A stretch of DNA of 64,000 bases from Rhodococcus ruber NBRC 15591. GTDB taxonomy: Bacteria; Actinomycetota; Actinomycetes; Mycobacteriales; Mycobacteriaceae. Location of the stretch: positions 1-64,000 of the forward strand of contig NZ_BCXE01000012.1 in the NCBI RefSeq assembly GCF_001894945.1, in the 5' to 3' direction. The notes under the pieces were generated by a model. The model searched no databases. It was not told where the DNA came from and worked only from the letters and a program-made list of their open reading frames with translations. Positions 20,334 to 22,233 of the stretch are shown one piece after another. Position 1 is the stretch's first letter. Every line of letters starts with the position of its first letter. The translations under genes and the position numbers were made by a program.

Positions 20334-20377
20334 GCAGGGGTGACCGCGGCCCGCCAGGGCTGCTGCCCGTCCGAGTC

Positions 20378-20382
20378 AGGAG
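20378..20382 (+). promoter_or_regulatory. Ribosome-binding site that decides the lepA start
   Basis: AGGAG is followed by six bases and then ATC at 20389. The spacing is ideal, but the codon it serves is not ATG, GTG or TTG; none of those occurs in frame between the upstream stop at 20341 and the GTP-binding loop. Confidence 0.65.
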
Positions 20383-20388
20383 CCCGAC

Positions 20389-22233
20389 ATCAGCACCTTC
20401 GCCGACACCACGTTCACGGACCCCGCGAAGATCCGGAACTTCTGCATCATCGCGCACATCGACCACGGCAAGTCGACGCTCGCGGACCGCATGCTGCAGC
20501 TCACCGGTGTGGTCGAGGAGCGCCAGATGCGTGCTCAGTACCTCGACCGGATGGACATCGAGCGCGAGCGCGGGATCACCATCAAGGCCCAGAACGTGCG
20601 GCTGCCGTGGCAGGTCGACGGCGAGGACTACGTCATGCACCTCATCGACACGCCCGGGCACGTCGACTTCACGTACGAGGTCTCCCGTGCGCTCGAGGCG
20701 TGTGAGGGTGCGGTGCTCCTCGTCGATGCCGCCCAGGGCATCGAGGCGCAGACCCTCGCCAACCTCTATCTCGCTCTCGACAAGGACCTGACGATCATCC
20801 CGGTCCTGAACAAGATCGATCTGCCCGCGGCCGACCCGGACCGCTACGCCGCCGAGATCGCACACATCGTCGGCTGCGAGCCCGAGGAGGTGCTGCGGGT
20901 GTCGGGCAAGACCGGGGTGGGCGTGCGGGAACTGCTCGACGAGGTGATCCGGCAGGTACCGCCGCCGGTCGGCGACCGCGACGCGCCCGCCCGCGCGATG
21001 ATCTTCGACTCGGTGTACGACACCTACCGTGGCGTCGTCACGTACGTGCGTGTGGTCGACGGCAGGATCGTGCCGCGCGAGAAGATCAAGATGATGTCCA
21101 CCGGCGCCACCCACGAGCTGCTCGAGGTGGGCATCGTCTCGCCCGAGCCGAAGGTCACCACCGGGCTCGGAGTCGGCGAGGTCGGCTATCTCATCACCGG
21201 CGTGAAGGACGTGCGTCAGTCAAAGGTCGGCGATACGGTCACCTCGGCGCGGGGCGGCGCCGCCGAACCCCTCACCGGTTACCGGGAACCCCGCCCGATG
21301 GTCTACTCCGGCCTGTATCCGGTCGACGGGTCGGACTATCCCGTCCTGCGCGATGCCCTCGACAAGCTGCAGCTCAACGACGCCGCGCTCACCTACGAAC
21401 CCGAGACGTCGGTGGCACTCGGCTTCGGTTTCCGGTGCGGCTTCCTCGGCTTGCTGCACATGGAGATCACCCGGGAACGACTCGAGCGCGAGTTCGGCCT
21501 GGACCTGATCTCCACCGCTCCCAACGTGGTCTACCGCGTGGTCCTCGAAGGTGGGCAGGAGCACATCGTCACCAACCCGTCGGACTGGCCCGAAGGCAAG
21601 GCCCGCGCGATCTACGAGCCGATCGTCAAGTGCACGATCATCTCCCCGAGCGAGTTCATCGGTTCGATCATGGAGCTGTGCCAGTCGCGGCGTGGCGAAC
21701 TCGGCGGCATGGACTACCTGTCCGAGACCCGGGTCGAGTTGCGCTACACCCTGCCGATGGCCGAGATCATCTTCGACTTCTTCGACTCGCTGAAGTCCCG
21801 CACCCGCGGCTACGCCAGCCTCGACTACGAGGAGGCCGGGGAGCAGGAGGCCGCACTGGTGAAGGTGGACATTCTGCTCCAGGGCGAGGCCGTCGACGCG
21901 TTCAGCGCGATCGTGCACAAGGACGCGGCCGCCGCGTACGGCAACAAGATGACCACCAAGCTCAAGGAGCTGATCCCGCGTCAGCAGTTCGAGGTGCCGG
22001 TGCAGGCGGCGATCGGGTCGAAGATCATCGCCCGGGAGAACATCCGTGCGATCCGCAAGGACGTGCTCGCCAAGTGCTACGGCGGCGACATCAGCCGCAA
22101 GCGCAAGCTGCTCGAGAAGCAGAAGGAAGGCAAGAAGCGGATGAAGACGATCGGCCGGGTGGACGTCCCGCAGGAAGCGTTCGTGGCCGCGCTCTCGTCC
22201 GAGGCGTCCTCGGACAAGCCGAAGGGGAAGTAG
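20389..22233 (+). CDS. lepA: Elongation factor 4 (LepA), apparent AUC start
   Basis: LepA/EF4 (about 614 residues) is a ribosome-bound translational GTPase. G1 is AHIDHGKST (about 22-30); G2/G3 are seen in [10 protein letters not shown] and DTPGHVDF; G4 is NKID; the LepA-specific C-terminus [21 protein letters not shown] is complete. The first in-frame ATG, at 20491, falls after G1 and cannot be the real start. The frame opens at 20344 after a stop, with no ATG/GTG/TTG before 20491. The only well-placed ribosome site precedes ATC AGC ACC at 20389, so an AUC start is proposed. A sequencing error is the alternative. The C-terminal end is secure. Confidence 0.9.

Follow-up and report, generated by a model that had tools for sequence, protein, structure and literature searches.

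An AUC start codon is very likely for lepA in Rhodococcus ruber, with ATC or ATT at the homologous codon in 22 of 30 genera of its family

AUC and AUU are known as start codons for only a few bacterial genes. The closest described system is infC, which starts with AUU in E. coli and with AUC in Streptomyces (PMC5472188). The same source describes the sigR gene of Streptomyces, which starts with GTC and is repressed by IF3 (PMC5472188). For lepA itself, AUU starts were proposed in 2007 in Borrelia burgdorferi and Bacillus licheniformis (PMC1780047). A further AUU start is that of pcnB in E. coli (PMC4245954; also reference 21 of PMC1780047, where the text prints pncB).

The lepA gene studied here resembles each of these cases in part. 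Like infC, it is a translation-factor gene with a strong Shine-Dalgarno (SD) sequence and an AUC or AUU start; IF3, however, is itself a fidelity factor and so closes a direct loop on infC, whereas control of LepA would be indirect. With sigR it shares an actinobacterial host and a non-standard start that annotation overlooked, but codon and gene are different, and the sigR start has been proven experimentally while the case for lepA is comparative only. The Borrelia and Bacillus examples concern the same gene and the same kind of start codon, and they too were inferred from sequence; they are two cases in distant phyla, whereas ATC and ATT are found here in 22 of 30 genera of one family. The pcnB gene is alike in that a rare AUU limits its expression, and differs in its unrelated function and lineage. 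No earlier report of a family-wide AUC/AUU start for lepA was found in the open-licence literature. Gvozdjak and Samanta are said to have described genes that prefer non-AUG starts, and lepA may be on their list. In a ribosome-profiling paper on M. tuberculosis, neither “lepA” nor “Rv2404c” appears in the main text (PMC9094748).

The window analyzed is a stretch of 64,000 nucleotides from Rhodococcus ruber NBRC 15591. On its forward strand, lepA (elongation factor 4) occupies 20389..22233, with 614 codons plus a stop, and its product matches TIGR01393 with 978.7 bits against a cut-off of 533.9. The GTP-binding loop HIDHGKST (20455..20478) is intact. A sequence-only reading had claimed that this gene has no conventional start codon ahead of an internal ATG, and the sequence reads exactly so: between the last in-frame stop, a TGA at 20341..20343, and the loop there is no ATG, GTG, or TTG (together NTG below) in the lepA frame, and the first conventional in-frame codon is the ATG at 20491, downstream of the loop. 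The AGGAG that it had pointed to is likewise present at 20378..20382, 6 nt ahead of the proposed start codon, an ATC at 20389..20391. Further upstream, TTGGATATTCT at 20323..20333 is a probable extended −10 promoter element of lepA. A divergent reading frame of 189 amino acids adjoins lepA on the reverse strand (19689–20258); it has no NCBIfam match and presumably resembles PemK/MazF-type proteins.

LepA was found in all 18 genomes of the same-genus set, and its 5′ end was readable in 17; the remaining genome, G009, was dropped since its gene is broken and only an internal part is left. The arrangement AGGAG-N6-ATC is kept in 14 of the 17, the window's genome included, and the AGGAG is invariant among these 14. 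The other 3 carry a TTG one codon earlier. In an alignment of the 14 ATC-type genomes, variable sites fall on codon positions 1, 2, and 3 in the proportion 9/4/41 over the 80 codons from the ATC onward, and in the proportion 14/13/14 over the 60 ungapped nucleotides ahead of it, where the leader also contains insertions and deletions of 1 to 2 nt. The coding pattern, as judged from these alignments, is one that starts at the ATC and leaves the leader without sign of coding constraint. The putative promoter motif TTGGATAT(T/C)CT is conserved in all 14 genomes, while most of the sequence flanking it is not.

The three TTG genomes (G014, G004, and G017) also have a leader like that of genus g10, and Prescottella equi stands apart from the other g10 rows on the lepA tree. 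Both observations hint at an exchange of the lepA 5′ region.

To place the codon in a wider frame, we used 141 genomes from 30 genera of the family to which the window's organism belongs, along with Mycobacterium, Gordonia, and Tsukamurella. This set consists of an even draw of 121 genomes (8 of them from the own genus), to which 9 more of the own genus and 11 more of genus g28 were added; the own genus and g28 are over-represented in it. The homologous codon is ATC in 54 genomes and ATT in 43, which amounts to 97 of 141 genomes and 22 of 30 genera, and the even draw by itself gives 79 of 121. A conventional codon stands there in 40 genomes (23 GTG, 14 TTG, and 3 ATG). Three genomes, all of genus g3, have no start-type codon at −22 to −24 and an ATG at −27 instead, and one (G052) is ambiguous, with an ATT at −22 plus a TTG at −24. 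Since only start-type codons at −22 to −24 were eligible for these labels, which makes them mildly circular, the full alignment column −23, which holds the window's ATC, gives the unpicked view: its 112 in-register rows contain 53 ATC, 43 ATT, 15 GTG, and 1 ATG, and across all 141 rows it holds no codon for Ile, Val, Leu, or Met besides these four. The 29 out-of-register rows comprise 14 TTG, 8 GTG, and 2 ATG at −24, along with five special cases, namely the three g3 rows, G052, and G029, which has its ATC at −22.

Both classes of start occur inside single genera (g1, g6, g15, g19, and g22), and in the family set ATG at the start position is confined to g3 and g5. Among named loci, ATC was found in Mycobacterium interjectum, M. 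gastri, and two Mycobacterium sp.; ATT in Gordonia amarae, G. hydrophobica, and Tsukamurella spumae, the latter two also having a GTG inside AGGAGTG; GTG in Nocardia lijiangensis and N. cyriacigeorgica; TTG in Prescottella equi; and ATG in two Corynebacterium. One named family locus (L225) was unreadable. All four readable named Mycobacterium loci encode a P-I-(S/N)-S-F-A-D segment with CAGGAG and ATC, and LepA of M. tuberculosis is annotated with a long extension running through a similar ...PISSFADKTF segment. Across the family loci, the distance from SD to start shifts with the start codon, being mostly 4 nt for GTG, 6 to 7 nt for ATC, and 8 nt for ATT.

Several features mark this codon as a start and not as a conserved isoleucine. 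Only 4–5% of the internal Ile codons of lepA are ATT (for comparison, 43–47% of Val codons are GTG and 4–9% of Leu codons TTG), while ATT occupies the start position in 13 of the 22 ATC/ATT genera (binomial 4e-13, with genera only roughly independent); the codon therefore varies like a start and not like a residue. Whether AGGAG ahead of ATC is conserved in relatives was the check that the sequence-only reading had proposed, and the outcome favors it: AGGAG lies 6 to 9 nt before the ATC or ATT in 83 of 97 genomes, and 40 further genomes have GTG, TTG, or ATG at that place; when the remaining in-frame positions of these loci are taken as controls, AGGAG stands just ahead of only 85 of 11,334. 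Of the 14 genomes without a perfect AGGAG, 11 have AAGG or GGAG. The second codon encodes Ser, Pro, Thr, or Ala throughout the 97 ATC/ATT genomes, as would be expected for methionine removal. In addition, six genomes from four genera (G022, G085, and G112 of g6; G056 of g15; G119 of g23; G042 of g26) have an in-frame stop at most 33 codons from the loop with no NTG between them, and in five of these six the gap from the stop to the ATC or ATT is three codons. The open frame up to the loop is free of NTG in 23 of 141 genomes, representing 9 genera.

Looking only upstream of the ATC or ATT, the open frame contains no NTG in 24 of the 97 genomes, and the nearest one is at least 11 codons off in another 32. 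An NTG within 9 codons is found in the other 41, which are read as ATC/ATT starts by SD spacing and homology, and less securely so. For 32 of these it is a GTG at a distance of three codons, 31 of the genomes being of the ATT type and the last, G029, of the ATC type; for the other 9 the NTG is 6 to 9 codons away. The GTG forms part of AGGAGTG in all 31 ATT genomes and is disfavored as a start because it is too close to that SD sequence. The motif AGGAG-N5-7-ATCAGC occurs 12 times in the window's genome and 7 times in a reversed control; as it is not rare by itself, the case rests on the comparison with relatives. The features found for lepA are those of a gene with a non-NTG start: no usable NTG, an SD sequence at normal spacing, and interchange with GTG, TTG, or ATG among orthologues. 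Taken together, initiation of lepA at the AUC at 20389 is very likely.

Outside the family, a candidate start of the type ATG, GTG, or TTG was present within codons −36 to −15 in all 89 lepA genes with a readable loop, which came from 24 of 125 non-family genomes of the order and from 65 of 66 named loci (L277 was unreadable). Several Pseudonocardiaceae (L212, L214, L216, and L273 among them) have a GTG at exactly the homologous codon, for example in V-S-T-F-A-D. A lepA tree was built with a “quick” method from 84 full-gene loci (from L006–L071, plus 19 named loci), leaving aside 701-base fragments and the other named loci. On its 84 rows, with L041 (G052) left out of the switch count, there were at least six changes between ATC/ATT and NTG, a count that does not depend on the root. 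The simplest reading is a single gain near the base of the family followed by several returns, although the counts do not fix the direction. The gene has switched to or from NTG at least six times and so can do without the rare start, a point that weakens the regulatory part of our proposal.

The analogy with infC that the sequence-only reading had drawn was borne out in the same genome, where infC begins with ATC AGC behind the SD sequence TAGGAGG. We found infC in 31 of 31 genomes and fetched 30 loci, 27 of which were readable; the start position is ATC in 26 of them and ATT in one. In six of these 27 loci, the frame is closed by a stop at most 17 codons from the anchor, and no NTG lies between; in the window's genome, an ATG precedes the infC ATC by 17 codons, so that this locus is less strict when taken alone. 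An initiator tRNA with a changed anticodon was also considered and rejected: the initiator-type anticodon stem pattern GGGCTNATAACCC occurs at two loci of the genome, both of them tRNA-Met genes with a CAT anticodon, other anticodon stems lying outside this pattern. No special fold was detected in the lepA leader (z of 0.00 and +1.62).

A start other than the ATC has little in its favor. That a normal start was lost through faulty sequencing or assembly is barely conceivable: nothing speaks for it beyond the absence of such a start, and it is refuted by independent genomes, as AGGAG-N6-ATC recurs in 13 of the 16 other same-genus genomes that could be read, and ATC or ATT in 83 further family genomes. 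It is nearly as improbable that LepA is made by leaderless initiation from the RTG close to the expected transcription start, here a GTG at 20340..20342. What suggests it is the position of this codon, 6 nt past the −10-like hexamer in the window and 5 to 6 nt past it in all 14 ATC-type same-genus genomes. In the window, this GTG lies out of frame, as had been claimed, 49 nt ahead of the ATC, so that, barring a ribosomal frameshift, the reading frame refutes it as the lepA start; no in-frame ATG or GTG, the mark of a leaderless gene, stands at the predicted 5′ end of this transcript. The RTG is out of frame in 10 of the 14 genomes, the window's included, where indels break the frame; in the 4 in-frame genomes, it may serve as a second start. 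A third alternative, initiation at the ATG at 20491 or at another near-cognate codon close to 20389, is also highly improbable. Although ATG 20491 is the first conventional in-frame codon, a protein begun there would lack HIDHGKST, and the codon-like conservation already sets in at 20389; it was rejected for these reasons. A second Ile codon is indeed present at −25 in 22 of 141 genomes (13 ATT in g28, 7 ATC in g4, and 2 ATA in g6), but in g28 and g4 it was judged too close to the SD sequence, lying 0 or 2 nt behind AGGAG, and in the window codon −25 is CCC.

The most serious competitor accepts the AUC as the true start and gives it no role in control by IF3: the codon would hold LepA at a low, constant level, or would drift neutrally among weak starts. 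We consider this somewhat less than an even chance. The start-class switches on the tree and the presence of both classes within five genera fit it well, as does the contrast with infC, whose ATC is kept in 26 of 27 loci, as would be expected of a start under true regulation, while the start of lepA switches. These repeated switches and the infC contrast speak for the plainer reading that a weak start merely limits expression. Against it stand the persistence of the rare start in 22 of 30 genera, the AGGAG kept in 83 of 97 genomes, and the restriction of ATG at this place to g3 and g5.

The RTG itself shows a leaderless-like pattern. In the window, the conserved block and the RTGACC behind it span 20323–20345. 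RTGACC follows TTGGATAT(T/C)CT in all 14 ATC-type same-genus genomes, 13 times as GTG and once as ATG, in frames 0, 1, and 2 relative to lepA in 4, 5, and 5 genomes, respectively. A similar motif is also present in g21 and g23, in 4 of their 13 ATC genomes. In four species the RTG could give rise to an N-extended LepA; elsewhere it could open an overlapping reading frame upstream.

The explanation that we favor, in which lepA has its own promoter, an AUC start, and IF3-sensitive synthesis of LepA, is as a whole probably correct. Transcription from the lepA promoter would give a leader of approximately 50 nt, and the 30S subunit would be placed by the AGGAG, so that the ordinary initiator tRNA initiates at AUC 20389. 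The product would then begin fMet-Ser-Thr-Phe-Ala-Asp, with fMet presumably used in spite of the codon. IF3 is reported to destabilize initiation at codons other than ATG, GTG, and TTG (PMC5472188), and in a reconstituted system more IF3 led to a smaller share of full-length product from AUU with a CAU anticodon (PMC10158994). Because AUC and AUU initiation is destabilized in this way, initiation of lepA is expected to be weak and LepA output low, and to drop as IF3 activity rises, in parallel with the AUC-start infC. By analogy with these systems, IF3-sensitive translation would be the likeliest consequence of an AUC start, though we hold the chances of it to be about evenly balanced. That IF3 activity and LepA are linked homeostatically is plausible at a similar, roughly even, level; in E. 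coli, the main effect of LepA is reported to be on initiation, and it may also take part in late 30S assembly (PMC4245954). More tentatively, infC and lepA may make up a small group of genes whose rare starts IF3 reads out together, such that a lower stringency of start-codon selection would raise IF3 and the GTPase LepA jointly; we regard this as rather unlikely. It is equally doubtful, as part of the same idea, that the AUU starts of lepA in Borrelia and Bacillus reflect the same control, reached independently.

An AUC or AUU start for lepA would make it a second translation factor with such a start, in 22 of 30 genera of the family, Mycobacterium included. Gene finders that are limited to ATG, GTG, and TTG cannot place this start, and the comparison of loci suggests that the N-terminus of LepA may be misannotated in many genomes. 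The role of LepA, which is unsettled, becomes approachable through what its synthesis responds to, and a circuit based on start-codon fidelity may, judging from these sequences, reach beyond infC.
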